Below, piece after piece: positions 33,051 through 54,105 of a DNA stretch of 64,000 nt. The position numbers and the translations under genes were made by a program. The stretch's first letter is position 1. Every line of letters starts with the position of its first letter. The DNA comes from Halomonas alkaliantarctica (GTDB lineage: Bacteria > Pseudomonadota > Gammaproteobacteria > Pseudomonadales > Halomonadaceae), in assembly GCF_029854215.1 (NCBI RefSeq), contig NZ_CP122961.1, positions 2,666,001 through 2,730,000 on the forward strand, written 5' to 3'. The notes below the pieces were generated by a model. That model was not told where the DNA came from and did no database searches. It was given only the letters and a program-made list of their open reading frames with translations.

Positions 33051-33256
33051 CTTGGCCTAATCCTCTTGCCATTCGTACATTAAGTTGAACCGCCTAGCTT
33101 ACCATATTCCCACCGCCGCGCCTTTAAGCTAAACCCTTAGCGAGCTTAGCATTAAGGCTATGAATAATATGCTCATTAGCCGCGCATGCCCCCCTCGTGT
33201 ATGGTGGTGAGCGTGATTTGGCAATTATGTTCGTTCACCAAGCTGGAGTCATCAAC

Positions 33257-34480
33257 ATGCAGAAGGATCCCAATAAGGGCTATATCGCTCTATTAGGCTG
33301 GAGTCTCAATGCGATTGAAGCGGCCGAGAATTTTGACCGTCGCTACATTGTCGTTGCACCCGATTGGGCGGAAGAGTATTGCCAAAAACACGACATTCCC
33401 TACGTGCCTTGGAATTTCGAGCGACTCAATGACCGCTCGATGGAAATTGCCGAGACACTGAAGGAAAAAGGTGTCGATGTCGCCATTCCGCTCTACGAAG
33501 AGACCGTTGAGTGGGCAGGGGCCATCAACTCTGTGCTACTGGATAACCCGCGCATTTACGGCCAATCGCTGCTATTGCGTGATAAGGCGCTAATGAAGCG
33601 TCGTGCCCAACTAGGCGGCATCCGCGTGGGTATTTTTGAAGAAGCCCACGATAAAGAAGATGTAGTGCGCTTTCTGAAGCGCGTTAACCAGACGCTGCTG
33701 AAGCTGGACGGCGACCCCAACGACCCGATTCACCTGAAAGCGTTTGATAAAGCAGGCTGTCTTGGTCACCGCGTTATTCGCACCCCAGATGAAGTCGATA
33801 CCATTCCCGATGAAGAGTTTCCGGTGTTGATGGAATCGCACCTGGATGGCTGGGAATTTGCCGTTGAAGCATGGATTCACGATGGCAAAATCGCCTTCTT
33901 GAATATTTCCGAATACGTGACGCTTGGGTACTCGGTGTTTGTGCCCGCATCGCCTGAGCTCGAGATTTACCGCGAACAGATCACTCAACAAATCGAAAAG
34001 CTGATTAAAGCATTCGATATTGAGTTTGGTATGATCCACCCGGAATACTTTGTCACCAGCGATGGTGAGATGTACTTTGGCGAAGTGGCTTACCGTCCAC
34101 CCGGTTTTAAGGTATTTGAACTGCTAGAGCGTGTTTACGGCTTTAACGCTTACGAAGCTTCGATGCTAGTGTTCGACCCAAAAACCACGAAAGAAGAAGT
34201 GGCCAACTTCTTCCCCAAAGAAGTGGTCGATGCCGATGGCTTTGCCGGTTGCTTTGGCGTTTATCCCCGCCGTCGTGTGGTCAGCCGCTTGGAAATTCCC
34301 GAAGAGACCGAAGATCACCCCTATTTTGAGTCTCATGAGCTAACCTCACCAGTAGAAGAAACCGTTACTAAACGCACTGCGTTTGGTACCCATTGGGGTC
34401 TGATCTACTTTAAAGGCGAGGATGCGCATACGATTCGCGATCTGCTAAAACGCCAAGAAGATCTCGACTTCTATGTATAA
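33257..34480 (+). CDS. ATP-grasp ligase, first gene of a pair with a papain-like protein
   Basis: Predicted carboxylate-amine/thiol ligase of 407 residues. The N-terminal Rossmann-like domain covers about 1-110. The ATP-grasp core follows, with RDKALMKRRAQL, the central strand ESHLDGWEFAVEAW (Glu193, Glu200), and the metal-binding EVAYRPPG (Glu276, Arg280). It resembles the carbamoyl-phosphate-synthase-like ATP-grasp group that forms amide bonds. The substrate is unknown. The frame opens at GTG 33197; I chose ATG 33257, which has GGAG nine bases upstream. A gene for a large protein with a Cys-His-Asn pattern begins 30 bases downstream, suggesting a joint peptide- or amide-making and -cutting job. 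Confidence 0.8.
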   Translation: MQKDPNKGYIALLGWSLNAIEAAENFDRRYIVVAPDWAEEYCQKHDIPYVPWNFERLNDRSMEIAETLKEKGVDVAIPLYEETVEWAGAINSVLLDNPRIYGQSLLLRDKALMKRRAQLGGIRVGIFEEAHDKEDVVRFLKRVNQTLLKLDGDPNDPIHLKAFDKAGCLGHRVIRTPDEVDTIPDEEFPVLMESHLDGWEFAVEAWIHDGKIAFLNISEYVTLGYSVFVPASPELEIYREQITQQIEKLIKAFDIEFGMIHPEYFVTSDGEMYFGEVAYRPPGFKVFELLERVYGFNAYEASMLVFDPKTTKEEVANFFPKEVVDADGFAGCFGVYPRRRVVSRLEIPEETEDHPYFESHELTSPVEETVTKRTAFGTHWGLIYFKGEDAHTIRDLLKRQEDLDFYV

Positions 34481-34510
34481 TCCCCGCTAACGCAGGGATA
34501 AGGAGTCACC

Positions 34511-36583
34511 GTGGAGACTGATCAAGTTACGTCTTCTCAAGAAGATAGCAAGCTCAATGGACTGTTGAGCAAATTTGATGATGCCGTGCGCCTGCTAACC
34601 CAGGCGCCCGCCTTCTCAAAACCCGCCAAACTACCGCGAGTAATGGACACTGCGCGGAGAGTACTGCTTCAGGATGGCGGTTGTGAAGCACTAGAGTCCC
34701 GCGCGCAAGCGTTTGAGGACTCTGGCGTTTTTTGGGGCTCCGATTGGGAAACTCCTCAATACCTGGTACCGACCCTGACGACCTTCTCGCTGAAAAGCGC
34801 GGATGCCAATGTGGTCGTCATTGAGGCATTAAGCGAGCTTCGGCTTCTTGCTGTCGCTAAAGGCAATTTTGAACACCCGCTGGTTTCCGCCGAGCATGCG
34901 CACCACTACCTTACGCAGGTAATGGCAATTAATTTATGGCTGCTGTTCTTGCCGCCCAGTGAGGCGGAACGGGAAACCCAAGGGCGATTGGCAACCATCC
35001 CCCGCCAGCTTTTCCAGCACTTAGCCGAACGCATCGGCTACGAACATATCGTTGATCGCCTGATTGATGAGATATGGCGCATTTTGAAACAGCGCCCTAT
35101 TCAGGTTGATTCGATCAAACAGATGATCACTCAAATTGCGCTGTGTCAGGCCAACCCAGAGATTGACCTTGGCGCTAGCGGCCAAGGCGCCGACCGGCTT
35201 GTGAGTTCGCTTTACGGGCCCACCCAGGCCTGCCGTGAAGATCCTGGCGTCGACATTTACCGTGATCGATTGGAGCATATGGATCAGGCTGCTCTGCAGG
35301 CTGAATCTACCGGTTTCGCACGGGCGATGCACGACACCGGCCTGGTATCGCCGTATCACGCCGTGTTGTTGCGTCACCTGCTCGAAGAGGGTGATCACTT
35401 ACTCTCCGAGGCGCTGGGCCTTTCATCGACTGGCCGCGACTGCCTACTCTGCTATCGCGAACTGGTTCAAGCGCTGATTCGTGGCGGCGTTTATCCTGCC
35501 ACCGCTCAAGCGGTTTACGGCTTGGCGCTGATGCTTGAGCGCGGCATTCTCTATCAACCGCCGGTAGCACCCGCCATGTGGCGTCAGCTTAACCTACCGC
35601 TATCCGAGTGGGCGCAGTCACGACTCAATATCGCCTATGGCGATACTGTTTCTCCCCGCGCGCGCCTGATTGAAGGTGTACTCTGCATGCTGGGATTGCC
35701 GCTAGGCGTTGGCCAGGGTAACAATCCTACCTGCCAGTCAGCACGGGCACTCTCCATGTGGGCCTACAACGACCCAGACTATCTGCTGCAGATGGTAGCC
35801 TGGGCAGCCCGCGACGACGAAATCATCATGCATTTTGAGGGCCAAGCCATTTCATCAATGGCGAGCCTCTCAGGTGTGGCGACGCAACTCCCCATGGATC
35901 TTGATCCGGTTTCGTTGATTGTCGTACCGCATCTGGATCGCATTTACGCTGAAATGGGTCGGCGTTGTATTGGCCGCGAAGGCGATCCCCACCGCTGGGT
36001 GAATCCCGAATTTCACGGCTGGTGGTCGGGCCGTGGTTTTCTTATTAATGTTGATGTGGCCACCGGTCAGCTCAGCAATGTGGACAACTTTATACGCCAC
36101 TTCTTTGCCTACTATCACCCCTACTACAATGGCAACCAGCCGCTGATTCATCCCCAACCAGCGGGTATTGCGGTCACCGATAGCGCGGCGCGTTTTATCG
36201 GCTGGCACGCGATTACCATTTTGCGGGCGTCCCTCGACCCGACGGATGTCATGCGGATTTACTTCTACAATCCCAACAATGATAGCGGGCAGGATTGGGG
36301 CGATGGCGTTATTGTCAGCACATCGGGCAATGGCGAACGCTTTGGCGAGGCCTCACTACCTTTCGAACGCTTTGCATCGCGGCTGTATATTTATCACTAC
36401 GATCCTCTTGAGCGGGTTGATATAGCCGACGTCACCAGCGAAGAGGTGGAAAAAGTTAAACACTTCCTACACCGGAGCTGGGGGGCTTCACGCCTTCCAC
36501 CTACCGAGCTGCAGGCAGATCAAGGCTCCAATTCCACCCTCCCCAATCCACCGCTACCCGACACGCCTCCCGACGAAGGGTAA
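34511..36583 (+). CDS. Uncharacterised 690-residue protein with papain-like catalytic pattern
   Basis: I recognise no named family. There is no signal peptide and no clear membrane helix. Residues 1-390 look alpha-helical. From about 395 a pattern typical of papain-fold enzymes appears: Gln402, then Cys408 six residues later (GQGNNPTCQSARALSMW), as for Gln19-Cys25 of papain; His566 in GWHAITILRA; and Asn587 or Asp591 in YFYNPNNDSGQDW. Order and local context fit a Cys-His-Asn triad of a peptidase, transglutaminase or amidase. The tail is Pro/Asp-rich. GTG start with AAGGAG six bases upstream. It is in an operon-like string with the ATP-grasp gene (30-base gap) and tlyA (30-base gap). The catalytic assignment is inference. 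Confidence 0.75.
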   Translation: METDQVTSSQEDSKLNGLLSKFDDAVRLLTQAPAFSKPAKLPRVMDTARRVLLQDGGCEALESRAQAFEDSGVFWGSDWETPQYLVPTLTTFSLKSADANVVVIEALSELRLLAVAKGNFEHPLVSAEHAHHYLTQVMAINLWLLFLPPSEAERETQGRLATIPRQLFQHLAERIGYEHIVDRLIDEIWRILKQRPIQVDSIKQMITQIALCQANPEIDLGASGQGADRLVSSLYGPTQACREDPGVDIYRDRLEHMDQAALQAESTGFARAMHDTGLVSPYHAVLLRHLLEEGDHLLSEALGLSSTGRDCLLCYRELVQALIRGGVYPATAQAVYGLALMLERGILYQPPVAPAMWRQLNLPLSEWAQSRLNIAYGDTVSPRARLIEGVLCMLGLPLGVGQGNNPTCQSARALSMWAYNDPDYLLQMVAWAARDDEIIMHFEGQAISSMASLSGVATQLPMDLDPVSLIVVPHLDRIYAEMGRRCIGREGDPHRWVNPEFHGWWSGRGFLINVDVATGQLSNVDNFIRHFFAYYHPYYNGNQPLIHPQPAGIAVTDSAARFIGWHAITILRASLDPTDVMRIYFYNPNNDSGQDWGDGVIVSTSGNGERFGEASLPFERFASRLYIYHYDPLERVDIADVTSEEVEKVKHFLHRSWGASRLPPTELQADQGSNSTLPNPPLPDTPPDEG

Positions 36584-36613: not shown

Positions 36614-37372
36614 ATGATGCGACTCGATCAACTGTTGGTCAGCCAGGGGCTGGCCAACTCCCGTACCCGCGCCCAAAGGCTTATTCGGCACGGGCGGATA
36701 AGCCTTGCCGAGAACGGTAAGCCGTTAACCAAAGCGTCAGAAAAGTGGCCCGACGATACACGGTTCGAAGTAGAAGACGACCCCGAAGAGCGCTATGTAT
36801 CGCGGGCAGGGTTGAAATTAGAAGCGGTACTTAAAGCACTTGAGCTGCGTTTTGACGACGATGTTGTGCTGGATATAGGTCAATCAACCGGCGGCTTCAG
36901 CGACTGCGCGCTGCGCTTTGGCGCCCGCCATGTGATCGGTGTAGAAGTTGGCCACGGCCAGCTTGCACCTGAGTTGCGCGGCGACCCACGCGTCACTTGC
37001 CTTGAGGGGGTAAATGCGCGCTCGATGAGCAGCAGTGAAGCCCTGAACAGCGTGCTGGCCACTCATCCCATCGATAGTGCCATCATGGACGTTTCCTTTA
37101 TCTCCCAAACGCTGATTCTGCCCGAGATTGCTGCCCTGTTGCCATCAAGCGGTCAGTTGATCTCGTTGGTAAAACCGCAATTTGAGCTAACCCCTGGCGC
37201 CCTGGATAAACGCGGCGTTGTACGCGACCCTAAGCGCTTCACAGAAGTAGAAGCCAGTATTCGCAGCGCCTGCGAAGCTTGCGGACTGACTATTCGCCAC
37301 TGGCAGGAGAGCCCAATTACCGGCGGCGACGGCAACCGCGAATTTCTTCTGCACGCCGTAAAGGACACTTAA
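36614..37372 (+). CDS. tlyA: TlyA-family rRNA 2'-O-methyltransferase/hemolysin-like protein
   Basis: Predicted RNA ribose methyltransferase of 252 residues. The N-terminal S4 RNA-binding domain (MRLDQLLVSQGLANSRTRAQ) is followed by an FtsJ/RrmJ-type SAM-binding domain (DIGQSTGGFSDCALRFGA), with catalytic Asp in IMDVSFISQ and lysine in LVKPQFE. TlyA of mycobacteria methylates 16S and 23S rRNA and gives capreomycin sensitivity; hemolysis by relatives is disputed. It starts 30 bases after the papain-like gene, so it may be cotranscribed. Confidence 0.92.
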   Translation: MMRLDQLLVSQGLANSRTRAQRLIRHGRISLAENGKPLTKASEKWPDDTRFEVEDDPEERYVSRAGLKLEAVLKALELRFDDDVVLDIGQSTGGFSDCALRFGARHVIGVEVGHGQLAPELRGDPRVTCLEGVNARSMSSSEALNSVLATHPIDSAIMDVSFISQTLILPEIAALLPSSGQLISLVKPQFELTPGALDKRGVVRDPKRFTEVEASIRSACEACGLTIRHWQESPITGGDGNREFLLHAVKDT

Positions 37373-49510: not shown

Positions 49511-50341
49511 CTAACCTTCTCGTAGAGCAGCCTTCCGCCGGGTCTCATTACGGCGCATGAAAAACCACGCCAACAGTGTCGCCAGCGATACCGTTAGGAT
49601 GATCAATGTGGCAAGCGCATTGATCTTTGGTGACACCCCCATACGCACCGACGAAAATACCACCATCGGCAGGGTGTTGGCCCCTGGCCCAGAAACAAAG
49701 CTGGCGATCACAAGGTCATCTAGCGAGAGGGTAAACGCCAGCAGCCAGCCTGCGGCCAACGCGGGGCTAATGATCGGCAGCGTGATAGAGAAGAAGGTTT
49801 TCACGGGAGGTGAGCCCAAATCCATGGCGGCCTCTTCGATAGAGAGATCCACTTCCCGCAGGCGCGCAGCCACCACGACCGCTACGTAGGCACTGCAAAA
49901 GGTGGTGTGAGCAATCCAAATGGTTGCCATGCCGCGATCGGCTGGCCAGCCGGTAATCTGCGCCATCTGTACAAAAAGCAGCAGCAACGAAAGACCCGTG
50001 ATGACTTCAGGCATTACCAGCGGCGCCGTGACCATACTTGATAGCGCTGTTTTGCCACGGAAGTGGCCATAGCGTGTCATTACAAAGGCTGCCACGGTGC
50101 CCAGGCAAATCGCCATGCTGGCCGCGAAAAACGCGATGCGCAGGCTCGTCCATACCGCCGACAAAATCTGCTGATCACGAAACAGCTCGCCGTACCACTG
50201 GGTGGAGAACCCCGCCCACACCGTGACCAACTTTGAAGCGTTAAACGAATACACCACCAGCACAAACATCGGCAGGTAAAGAAACAGTAGGCCAAGTACC
50301 AGCATGACCGTCGAAAAGTTAGGCCGTCGCATTCTGATCAT
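49511..50341 (-). CDS. potI: Putrescine/spermidine ABC transporter permease PotI
   Basis: Second inner-membrane permease of a polyamine importer, 276 residues with six helices. The EAA loop reads IEEAAMDLGSPPVKTFFSI. FLYLPMFVLVVYSFNASKLV at the start and SLDDLVIASFVSGPGANTLP near the end are typical of PotI/PotC. Last gene of the potF-potG-potH-potI operon, 10 bases after potH. Confidence 0.93.
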   Translation of the reverse strand: MIRMRRPNFSTVMLVLGLLFLYLPMFVLVVYSFNASKLVTVWAGFSTQWYGELFRDQQILSAVWTSLRIAFFAASMAICLGTVAAFVMTRYGHFRGKTALSSMVTAPLVMPEVITGLSLLLLFVQMAQITGWPADRGMATIWIAHTTFCSAYVAVVVAARLREVDLSIEEAAMDLGSPPVKTFFSITLPIISPALAAGWLLAFTLSLDDLVIASFVSGPGANTLPMVVFSSVRMGVSPKINALATLIILTVSLATLLAWFFMRRNETRRKAALREG

Positions 50342-50351
50342 GATTCAAGCG

Positions 50352-51263
50352 TCACTCTTGAAATTCGCGGGACTGGTAGCGGTGGAACCAGACAATAGGC
50401 ACTAGTAACAACAGTAGCATTACCATGGCCAGCGCCGACGCCACGGGCCAGTCGCGGTTGAGGAAGAACTCCTCCCACAGCACTTTGCCGATCATTAGCG
50501 TGTCAGGGCCGCCTAGCAGCTCAGGAATCACGAACTCTCCTACCGCCGGAATAAACACCAGCATTGAACCGGCAACTATGCCCCCCGTAGAGAGCGGCAA
50601 GGTGACTTTGATAAAGGTATTGAGTTTGCGCGAGCCAAGATCAGCCGCGGCCTCTAACAGCGAGTTATCCATGCGCGTCAAGTGGGCATACAGCGGCAGC
50701 ACCATGAACGGCAAATAGGCGTAAACAATGCCGATGATGACCGCAAACTGGGTATTCATCATGCGCAGCGGCGAATCGATCAAGCCAACACCTATCAATA
50801 GGTTATTGATTAACCCACTGTTACTCAGAATCCCCATCCAGGCGTAGACACGAATCAAAAACGACGTCCATGATGGCAGCATGACCAGTAGCAGTAGCAA
50901 CAGCTGCCAGCGGGCCGGAGCTCGGGCCATGGCATACGCCATCGGGTAACCCAACAGCAAACAGGCCAGCGTGGCGATAAATGCCGTTTTCACCGAGCCC
51001 CAATAGGCGGCGATATACAGCGAGTCAGAAAGCAGGAAGAGGTAATTGCCTAAATTAAGAAATACATGCAGCGTCTGGTCGGCGTACTCAAGCAGCGGGC
51101 CATAGGGCGGAATCGCAATCGCCGCCCCGGAGAGGCTGATTTTGAGCACCAGCGCAAAGGGCAGTAAAAAAAACAGCGTCAGCCACACGAGCGGAAACGC
51201 GATCACTGCCCGACGCCCTAACTGCAAGCGTTTGAGCAGTGCTGAAGAACGAGATAACTTCAT
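50352..51263 (-). CDS. potH: Putrescine/spermidine ABC transporter permease PotH
   Basis: First permease of the polyamine importer. From ATG 51263 it has 303 residues with six helices; GAGGAG lies ten bases before that ATG. The frame is open to 51311, but that would lie only 20 bases from potG without a ribosome site. The EAA motif LLEAAADLGSRKLNTFIKV and PAVGEFVIPELLGGPDTLMI are PotH/PotB hallmarks. Confidence 0.92.
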   Translation of the reverse strand: MKLSRSSALLKRLQLGRRAVIAFPLVWLTLFFLLPFALVLKISLSGAAIAIPPYGPLLEYADQTLHVFLNLGNYLFLLSDSLYIAAYWGSVKTAFIATLACLLLGYPMAYAMARAPARWQLLLLLLVMLPSWTSFLIRVYAWMGILSNSGLINNLLIGVGLIDSPLRMMNTQFAVIIGIVYAYLPFMVLPLYAHLTRMDNSLLEAAADLGSRKLNTFIKVTLPLSTGGIVAGSMLVFIPAVGEFVIPELLGGPDTLMIGKVLWEEFFLNRDWPVASALAMVMLLLLLVPIVWFHRYQSREFQE

Positions 51264-51331
51264 TAAAGGCAGTCTCCTCGCGGTAAGGAATGCGTCACTA
51301 TCACCATTCAAAACGTTAGCAGCTCAAGACG

Positions 51332-52513
51332 CTAGCGGTTCAGAACAATCGTACTGTGATCTTCCCAGTAGACATACACACTGTCTTCCCAGGTGGGTCG
51401 ATCACCACGACGCTCGGTATTGGCCATACTGACTTTAATGATCTGGCCCGACTGGGTGCGCACGTAATAGAGCGAGAAACCACCCAGGTAGGCGATATCA
51501 TCCACCTTGCCTTCCGCCCAGTTATATTCAGTGGTGGGTTTCTCGCGGGTTAGCCAGATTTTTTCAGGGCGCAGCGCGACCCAAACCCGCCGATTCGACG
51601 CCTGGGTGGTAATACCGTGGTCAATATAGATGGGCCGCTCGAGCGCGGGAGCGGCGATGCGGCAGTGGTCGGCAGCGTCTTCGATAATCTCGCCTTCAAA
51701 CAGATTCACCGTGCCGACGAATTCCGCCACCATGCGGCTCACCGGGCTTTCATAAATATCGATCGGCGAGCCTATTTGCTCGATCCAGCCATCGGCCATG
51801 ATCGCTACACGGTCGGCCATGGTCATCGCCTCTTCCTGGTCGTGAGTGACCATAATGCAGGTCACGCCGACCTGTTCGATGATCTCGACCACTTCTAGCT
51901 GCATTTCAGTGCGCAGCTTTTTATCCAGTGCGCCCATGGGCTCGTCTAACAGCAACAGCTTGGGCCGCTTGGCCAGCGAACGTCCCAGCGCTACCCGCTG
52001 GCGCTGGCCGCCAGAGAGCTGGTGCGGTTTGCGCTTGGCAAAGCGCTGCATATGCACCAGCTTCAACATTTGCGCGACGCGAGCGTCGATATCCGCTTTG
52101 GGGAGCTTGTCCTGTTTTAAGCCAAAGGCAATATTCTGTGCCACCGTCATATGCGGAAATAGTGCATAGGACTGGAACATCATATTGATAGGCCGCTTGT
52201 GCGGGGGCATAGCGGTGATATTCTCACCGTCTAATAAAATCCGGCCTTCGGAGGGCGTTTCAAAGCCCGCCAGCATTCTCAGCAGGGTTGATTTACCCGA
52301 CCCGGAGCCACCTAACAGCGCAAAAATTTCCCCGCGCTTAACCTGCAAATTGACATCATCCACCGCCAGCGCATCATCAAACCGCTTGCTTAAGCGCTTC
52401 ACTTCCAGCACCACATCCTCAGCGAACCGCGGGGTTTTGCCCTGGGGCCGCGACGTTGAAGGCGTGATGGGTGAAGCAGATGAAGGCTCGTTCGACAGGG
52501 GCGTAGTGACCAT
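51332..52513 (-). CDS. potG: Polyamine ABC transporter ATP-binding protein PotG
   Basis: ATPase of the polyamine importer, 393 residues. Walker A GGSGSGKSTLL, signature LSGGQRQRVALGRSLA, Walker B LLLLDEPMGALDKK and H-loop VTHDQEEAM are intact; the C-terminal TOBE domain includes VALRPEKIWL. An N-terminal Ser/Pro-rich extension of about 30 residues precedes VLEVKRLSKRFDDALAVDDV. PotG rather than PotA is chosen because the operon has the potFGHI order. Confidence 0.92.
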   Translation of the reverse strand: MVTTPLSNEPSSASPITPSTSRPQGKTPRFAEDVVLEVKRLSKRFDDALAVDDVNLQVKRGEIFALLGGSGSGKSTLLRMLAGFETPSEGRILLDGENITAMPPHKRPINMMFQSYALFPHMTVAQNIAFGLKQDKLPKADIDARVAQMLKLVHMQRFAKRKPHQLSGGQRQRVALGRSLAKRPKLLLLDEPMGALDKKLRTEMQLEVVEIIEQVGVTCIMVTHDQEEAMTMADRVAIMADGWIEQIGSPIDIYESPVSRMVAEFVGTVNLFEGEIIEDAADHCRIAAPALERPIYIDHGITTQASNRRVWVALRPEKIWLTREKPTTEYNWAEGKVDDIAYLGGFSLYYVRTQSGQIIKVSMANTERRGDRPTWEDSVYVYWEDHSTIVLNR

Positions 52514-52614
52514 TCGCCACTCCCATCAAAAGGCCCGGAAACCCGGGCATTAAAAAAGACGAGCAGCGAGCCACAGAGAATTAACCCCAGGCTCGCCGTC
52601 GGATAAATATCGGT

Positions 52615-53718
52615 TTAACGACCAGACTTTACGCGGTTCCAAATGCGCGTACGTGCACGCAGCACATTTTGAGGCTTTTCAGCCTGCACGTATAGGTTTT
52701 GCATGACCTCGGTTTTCGGGTAAATAGCCGGGTCATTGATGATTTCATCAGAGAGGTACTCATCGGCCGCCGCGTTGGGATTGGCATAACGCACGTACTC
52801 GGTAATTTCAGCGGCGATTTCAGGGTCGAGGATAAAGTTGATGAAGGCGTGAGCGTTTTCACTGTTCGGCGCATCGGCGGGTACTGCCATCATATCGAAC
52901 CACAGTGCGGCGCCTTCTTTTGGAATGCTATAAGCGATGGTGAAATCACGACCAGCTTCTTCGGCACGGTCAGCGGCCTGGAAAATATCACCCGAGTAGC
53001 CAGCGGCTACGCAGATATCACCATTCGCCAGGTCGGACACATAGCGGGAAGAGTGAAAATAGGTCATGTCGTCGCGAACGTCGGCAATCAGTTCGCCAGC
53101 CGCTTCAATATCGTCCAGATTTTCACTTAGGGGGTCAAAACCCAGGTACGCCATGGCGGGCGAGAGCATTTCATCGGCAGAGTCCAGCATCGACAAGCCG
53201 CAGCCCGCTTCGCTCAACGCGGCGGTTATTTCAGGATCAAACAGTAGTGCCCAGCTATCTACCGGCGCATCATCACCCAAAATTTCTTTTACCCGGTCAA
53301 CGTTATAGCCGATCCCATTGGTGCCCCACATATAGGGAACCGAGTATTCGCTACCGGCGTCAATGGTTTCCAGGTTGGCCATCAGTTCTGGGTTGAGATT
53401 ATCTAAATTGGGCAGCAGCTCATGGTTAAGCGGCTGAAAAACACCGGCTTTCACTTGGCGGGTAAAGTAGTAGGTAGACGGTACCACTACATCGTAGCCG
53501 GAACGCCCGGCGAGCAGTGCAGCATCCAAAATTTCATTGCTGTCATAAACGTCATAAGTCACTTCAATGCCGGTACGCTCGGTAAATTTTTCCAGCGTTT
53601 CGGGGGCAATGTAGTCTGACCAGTTAAATACCCGCACCTCTTCGGCGTGGGCAGCGCTAGCCGCTGCGGCGAATGAGATAGCCGCAACGGCCGCGGAAAG
53701 TTTGTGGATGTTCCCCAT
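52615..53718 (-). CDS. potF: Polyamine-binding periplasmic protein PotF
   Basis: Periplasmic putrescine/spermidine receptor, 367 residues from ATG 53718, which has AGGAG eight bases upstream; the frame is open to 53739. The signal peptide ends SAAHA. The mature start EEVRVFNWSDYIAPETLEKF, the ligand-site WGTNGIGYN, and a run ending in aromatic and acidic residues fit PotF/SpuD. Which polyamine is preferred cannot be read. First gene of the operon; no regulator lies beside it. Confidence 0.92.
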   Translation of the reverse strand: MGNIHKLSAAVAAISFAAAASAAHAEEVRVFNWSDYIAPETLEKFTERTGIEVTYDVYDSNEILDAALLAGRSGYDVVVPSTYYFTRQVKAGVFQPLNHELLPNLDNLNPELMANLETIDAGSEYSVPYMWGTNGIGYNVDRVKEILGDDAPVDSWALLFDPEITAALSEAGCGLSMLDSADEMLSPAMAYLGFDPLSENLDDIEAAGELIADVRDDMTYFHSSRYVSDLANGDICVAAGYSGDIFQAADRAEEAGRDFTIAYSIPKEGAALWFDMMAVPADAPNSENAHAFINFILDPEIAAEITEYVRYANPNAAADEYLSDEIINDPAIYPKTEVMQNLYVQAEKPQNVLRARTRIWNRVKSGR

Positions 53719-54105
53719 TATCACTGCTCCTGTTGTCACAACTCATCATTAAACAAACCAGCATTCACTAAATAATTCAGCCAAATGTTTTGCCAAGTGT
53801 CTTCATACCAAGTTCGCCCTGCTGCTGCCGGCAACAGCCCTCACGGGCTAACAATAGCGTAGGACATAATACTGACCGTGCGAATTTTGCGGTGCGGTGA
53901 CGCCTACCGCAAGCCAATGTGAAAAATTCTTGTATTTTGCCCTACCGACCCCATTAAGTAGCTAGTAAAACAGAGACCTTTTATCCGCTAATAGGCCAAT
54001 GCTATTGGTCAGATGGTTTTTTTAAATTTTAGACATTAGTCGCTAGCCGTTAGCATTAGCACTACTTTATGAACACTTCACTCATTACAACTGGAGATTA
54101 TCTGA
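53719..54105. other. Divergent intergenic region, potF to ahpC
   Basis: 387 bases with two divergent promoters. It holds an OxyR-like motif (listed separately), a small AGCCC/GGGCT hairpin at 53836-53849, and an A+T-rich tract before ahpC. No coding frame is convincing. Confidence 0.5.
53991..54005. promoter_or_regulatory. OxyR-like half operator upstream of ahpC
   Basis: ATAG-N7-CTAT exactly matches the half-site of the OxyR consensus (ATAG-N7-CTAT repeated at 7-base spacing), 100 bases before the ahpC start. The next expected ATAG reads ATGG (54013-54016), a three-of-four match. ahpCF is the classic OxyR target. Confidence 0.65.

Follow-up and report, generated by a model that had tools for sequence, protein, structure and literature searches.

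A conserved pair of ATP-grasp ligase and papain-like genes in Halomonas alkaliantarctica and the deacetylase, acetyltransferase and ectoine synthase genes facultatively linked to it

What does a bacterium do with an ATP-grasp ligase whose gene is followed, within a few dozen nucleotides, by one for a large protein of no recognised family? We met this question in a stretch of 64,000 nucleotides from Halomonas alkaliantarctica (contig NZ_CP122961.1, positions 2,666,001 to 2,730,000), which we refer to as the window. The window genome (G000) is a single contig of 4.23 Mb, and its closest named relatives, judged by the second gene, are Halomonas/Vreelandella. Gene A (33257..34480, + strand, ATG at 33257) encodes a predicted ATP-grasp carboxylate-amine ligase of 407 residues; a longer form with a GTG start at 33197 is also contained in the list of open reading frames. 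Gene B (34511..36583, + strand) encodes 690 residues, a helical N-terminal half followed by a modelled papain-like C-terminal domain, and starts with GTG behind aaggag at 34500..34505 (+), which resembles a ribosome-binding site. A preliminary description of the window had rightly placed these two co-directional genes, separated by 30 nt, and had proposed that they make and cut an amide-linked product or tag a protein or peptide. Our own reading, which we hold with a probability of roughly 0.4, is that a cytoplasmic pathway of amide conjugation has A and B as its two core enzymes and would have its product level set by opposed make and break enzymes.

Are the two genes tied to each other beyond this genome? 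The neighbourhood survey that the preliminary description had in view gave a clear answer: B was found in 8 of 274 genomes of the class and in 52 of 341 genomes of the order, and all 60 B-bearing genomes tested carry A (G286 by tblastn), as against none of 20 B-less genomes; these and all other co-occurrence counts given here are phylogenetically non-independent. Within the class, 31 genomes yielded an A match at E ≤ 0.001, the top eight of which are the B genomes and score at least 776 bits, the next one 78. In a search of 68 genomes, all 48 B-bearing ones score at least 733 bits, and the 20 B-less ones gave one match only, of 21 bits. Moreover, 60 of the 78 B copies have A no more than 2 kb away, and in 71 of 80 named loci A precedes B on the same strand. 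In the nine remaining loci (L022-L025, L031, L052, L063, L068, L088) A stands elsewhere in the genome with at least 764 bits, so that B seems to need some A, and four of the nine retain a 3′-end remnant of A 33-35 nt ahead of B. In L088 (9793-11532), from a metagenome-assembled genome, the B match begins at residue 100 just past such a remnant, apparently owing to a deletion spanning the A-B junction. The window genome itself carries a second A (80% identical; C1:2102958-2104172, L137) with no B within 20 kb, the neighbours of which include an Exo_endo_phos protein and a BCCT transporter. In a tree of 79 A rows, the deepest split of which is poorly supported (90/32), 22 of the copies that lack an A-to-B arrangement group in a single clade (100/100), separate from the tandem type. 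Taken together, the displaced and second copies and this clade suggest that A copies are interchangeable and that B needs one of them.

The assignment of A as a ligase rests on several comparisons. Its best Pfam match, ATP-grasp_4 (E 8.4e-6, 25.9 bits), falls slightly below the curated cut-off of 27, and many relatives of A carry a precomputed PF13535 annotation. By sequence, A matches the L-amino acid ligase 4wd3 in the PDB (E 8.2e-6), and a profile search returned 4dim, 4wd3 and 3vot at E ~1e-3, so that its closest solved relatives are the L-amino acid ligases 4wd3 and 3vot, plus 4dim. K161, E263, E276 and R280 are kept in 125 of 125 copies and K149 in 124; the roles of these residues are assigned by analogy, according to which the putative ATP/Mg-binding lysines and acidic residues are conserved. 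As far as sequence can tell, A is thus an ATP-grasp ligase retaining its catalytic residues. With the RizA-type (4wd3) and BL00235 (3vot) L-amino acid ligases it has the fold and the ATP-grasp core in common, which makes dipeptide-type chemistry plausible; however, the similarity is weak (E 8e-6 for the single sequence, 1e-3 for the profile), and A differs from them in being tied to B and nearly invariant, its mean column identity amounting to 86% in a 30-row alignment.

What kind of protein is B? The preliminary description recognised no family for it, and none is curated: searches of Pfam, NCBIfam and PADLOC returned no match at E ≤ 1, none of six diverse relatives exceeds a family cut-off, and nothing credible emerged from the PDB (best E 0.77 by sequence, 0.58 by profile). 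The family is nevertheless large: of 7997 proteins scored, 2686 reach E ≤ 0.001, and one scan confirmed at least 586 loci; by entry names, it is also reported from Myxococcota and Thermoanaerobaculia. In the structure model, a helical half with only weak helical matches (residues 1-365 by DSSP; 34511..35605) precedes a papain/calpain-like domain (residues 370-632; 35618..36406). The four residues that the preliminary description had singled out are Gln402 (35714..35716), predicted to line the oxyanion hole, Cys408 (35732..35734), the predicted nucleophile, His566 (36206..36208) and Asn587 (36269..36271), all on the + strand. They follow the clan CA order Gln, Cys, His, Asn, and DSSP of the model places them as a papain fold requires: Cys408 opens the central helix (408-420), whereas His566 lies within a strand of the sheet (562-575) and Asn587 right behind another (581-586). 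None of the four is ever lost: all 141 rows of alignment A2, the most distant of which share 38% identity with the window B, have them, and so do all 148 genome copies whose match extends over at least 450 residues; the two sets overlap and include near-duplicates. Such universal retention is far beyond chance. The placement of the residues and the model support a papain/calpain-like C-terminal domain with a predicted enzyme activity, which would differ from known clan CA cysteine peptidases such as calpain and papain in lacking a sequence family match and in being fused to a 365-residue helical half. With no evident signal sequence, B is probably cytoplasmic.

The wider gene set, which lies outside the window and was therefore missed by the preliminary description, provides the clue to a possible substrate. 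H, a gene similar to class II histone deacetylases (HDACs), directly adjoins B in L147, L148, L152 and L222 and is 0.5 kb off in L226; the L147 copy matches Pfam Hist_deacetyl. Domain by domain, its nearest relatives by sequence are HDAC15 and bacterial HDAC-like amidohydrolases, and we rejected the label "HDAC6-like" because the underlying score of 1.9e-106 is the sum over the two catalytic domains of HDAC6. H orthologues (at least 330 bits) occur in seven of the eight A/B genomes of the class versus none of the other 266, which reach 274 bits at most, and H is present in 40 of the 60 B-bearing versus 0 of the 20 B-less genomes (best 202 bits). Seven genomes of six families have it at most 1 kb away from A or B (G181, G260, G454, G728, G813, G939, G950). 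N, a GNAT protein of about 177 residues, recurs beside H: it occurs in 13 of the 60 B-bearing genomes, always together with H and in 12 of them directly upstream of it, and at that level in none of the 20 B-less genomes (best 24 bits). We also considered N as EctA and discarded the idea, as no EctA-named NCBIfam model is among its matches. In one genome, a Tiki/ChaN-superfamily gene (Pfam Cofac_haem_bdg; L284 9000-10037) stands directly 3′ of H.

Additionally, eight loci (L148, L168, L199, L234, L237, L291, L298, L313) have a gene for the ectoine synthase EctC next to A, B or H; seven of them fall in the 60 B-bearing genomes, with the gene at 38-1821 nt from A or B. The L168 case is in a Halomonas genome, the same one as L031, and a ninth case (G825) adjoins A fragments only. 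All six linked proteins tested exceed the cut-off of NCBIfam PRK13290, and the match to L-ectoine synthase in the PDB reaches E 1.8e-38. The gene orders are operon-like and varied: EctC-A-B (L199), A-B-EctC (L237), A-B-H (L152), EctC-A-N-H (L291) and B-H-A-EctC (L148). In a canonical ectoine cluster EctC is encoded together with EctA and EctB, whereas neither was found in any of the eight loci within the sequence examined (only 4-6 kb for L148, L168 and L237); the same queries were positive in 6 of 20 other EctC loci, the ectABC genes of the window genome among them. The linked genes thereby resemble orphan, that is solitary, ectC genes, yet most orphan ectC loci examined have no A or B alongside. 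In ten of the loci L320-L332, an orphan ectC has a GTPase-like gene upstream and an ornithine-decarboxylase-like gene nearby, and in nine of these ten an MFS-like gene downstream, all families being guessed from sequence. On the level of sequence, then, H, N and an ectoine synthase without adjacent ectA/ectB are facultative linked members of the A-B set.

Several observations weigh against the reading as a joint pathway. Numerous other residues of B are invariant as well; plain Foldseek with the B model gave no significant match; and a separate model of residues 372-645 reached a predicted local distance difference test score (pLDDT) of only 47, probably because the alignment was shallow (52 of the 82 available slices, the window included, at 63-91% identity). 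No EctC is near the window's own A-B pair, EctC is also present in four of four B-less genomes of the same family, and intact A, B or H genes occur in none of the 20 other EctC loci examined (L336 has A fragments). One might ask whether the A-B pair is real, with H, N and EctC associated only via salty habitat and shared ancestry. The B-bearing genomes, by name, come largely from marine or saline groups, and the counts mentioned above are not independent. In favour of a link, an EctC match of at least 94 bits is found in 60 of 60 B-bearing versus 8 of 20 and 6 of 80 B-less genomes. Co-inheritance alone would hardly produce adjacency in several arrangements and families: a rough chance expectation, which ignores shared ancestry, is 0.26 loci for EctC and 0.17 loci for H within 2 kb, versus seven genomes observed in each case. 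We consider this explanation improbable.

How might the enzymes work together in the proposed amide-conjugation pathway? A would use ATP to convert a carboxylate into an acyl phosphate and join it to an amine; the predicted Cys408-His566-Asn587 triad of B would attack that amide, resulting in hydrolysis or transfer. N may add and H remove an acetyl group on the same amine-bearing compound, and the linked EctC may take as substrate an acetylated diamino acid akin to 2,4-diaminobutyrate. The amide formed would be related to ectoine or to an acetyl-diamine. According to part of PMC6344544, EctC cyclises N-gamma-acetyl-diaminobutyrate and the reverse reaction is possible on analogues, which makes a diaminobutyrate-type amine the natural guess for a shared substrate; the role of orphan EctC proteins is called unresolved in passages of PMC5924519 and PMC6344544. 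A specific version of this scheme, a new class of ectoine-type amides, appears unlikely to us: here A would join 2,4-diaminobutyrate or its acetyl form via the carboxylate to another amine, N would acetylate the side-chain amine, the orphan EctC would form the ectoine ring on the resulting conjugate, whose acetyl and amide bonds H and B would undo.

The linkage to ectoine synthase, acetyltransferase and deacetylase also favours a small molecule over the protein or peptide tag of the preliminary description. In that alternative, A would attach an amino acid or a peptide to a protein of the cell, from which B removes it, with N and H acetylating and deacetylating the same target. A ligase, a papain-fold peptidase, a GNAT and a class II HDAC are indeed the fold classes of reversible protein tagging, for which eukaryotic tubulin enzymes provide a parallel, and the strong conservation of A would suit an enzyme meeting a conserved partner. 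Vasohibin, as part of PMC10318531 states, has a papain-like fold. However, the neighbourhood comparisons revealed no conserved substrate protein beside the genes, the ectoine synthase points elsewhere, and the resemblance of H to HDAC6 is the two-domain artefact described above; we keep tagging as a distinctly doubtful rival.

Which of the proposed activities of B is the real one bears on the make-and-cut idea itself, which stands as a good inference from sequence, with the reservation that B may transfer instead of hydrolyse. Both enzymes could be biosynthetic, A loading or joining an acyl group and B serving as acyl- or peptidyl-transferase. This we consider unlikely: papain-fold transferases of the phytochelatin synthase/BtrH type match B structurally less well than calpain-type proteases do, B has no Pfam match to the BtrH domain at E ≤ 1, and no carrier protein was noticed by the genes, although no aimed search was made and small open reading frames were filtered from the neighbourhood scans.

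A further candidate substrate is suggested by transporter genes. Orphan B copies lie immediately 3′ of potFGHI-type operons in L143 (9279-11237) and L155 (9917-11869), and the window contains such a putrescine ABC transporter operon (49511-53739, - strand) 13 kb from B, the proteins of which are 81% (PotI), 65% (PotG) and 63% (PotF) identical to those of L155. Pot-like ABC genes also precede A-B in L084 and L195. Working in the manner of glutathionylspermidine synthetase/amidase, A could therefore link a carboxylate to putrescine or another polyamine of this kind, with B cleaving the conjugate and N and H acetylating and deacetylating the polyamine; known systems include GNAT and HDAC-like enzymes that act on polyamines. 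Yet L143 and L155 represent one genus, the Pot-like proteins of L084 and L195 are below NCBIfam cut-offs, and no Pot genes are near the other tested A/B loci at the thresholds used, for which reason we set the polyamine link aside as principal explanation and give it little credence as a rival. Several genomes of the L143/L155 genus (G334, G399, G435, G923, G939, G956) carry three B copies each. A TRAP transporter near B was examined as a possible ectoine importer and dismissed: the binding protein of L144, the only one compared, is closer to 2zzv (6.6e-27) than to TeaA 2vpn (2.3e-14). BCCT choline/betaine transporters, whose genes are widespread among halophiles, are encoded close to A or B in six loci. 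A gene at 36614-37372 (+) of the window, 30 nt past B, is one we take to be TlyA-like; among the compared neighbourhoods, this post-B position is confined to Halomonadaceae-type loci.

Does the set belong to a known system? Glutathionylspermidine synthetase/amidase pairs an ATP-grasp ligase with a papain-fold amidase, and A and B share this pairing; they differ in being separate genes and in the linked EctC, HDAC-like and GNAT genes, and neither has a Pfam match to the GSP synthetase or CHAP amidase domains at E ≤ 1. It is sound to infer from the sequences that the A-B pair is a variant of this ligase-plus-amidase kind, acting as a make-and-break couple. A role in anti-phage defence was rejected, as no PADLOC model matches A or B at E ≤ 1. 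Parts of PMC2922099 report papain-like and ligase genes together in other peptide systems, and parts of PMC11237479 an ATP-grasp protein related to glutathionylspermidine synthetase in PspA operons. Searches of the open-licence PMC literature yielded no description of the A/B/H/N/EctC set, although an earlier one is possible; the A-B set is real, conserved and apparently undescribed, and the interpretation in the preliminary description is supported in part. On the three points by which that description could have failed, namely the fold of B, the retention of its four residues and the company of A, the results went its way, for the fold with the reservations on Foldseek and the separate domain model given above.

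B represents a papain-like family missing from Pfam, NCBIfam and PADLOC that many bacterial families retain along with a single, strongly conserved ligase. Thanks to the linked genes, what was a "hypothetical protein beside ATP-grasp" becomes a pathway open to testing, with a concrete lead on orphan ectoine synthases: If the ectoine-amide pathway were true, at least some orphan EctC proteins would have a function, and a reversible amide conjugate would join compatible-solute metabolism in bacteria that are used for the production of ectoine and bioplastic.
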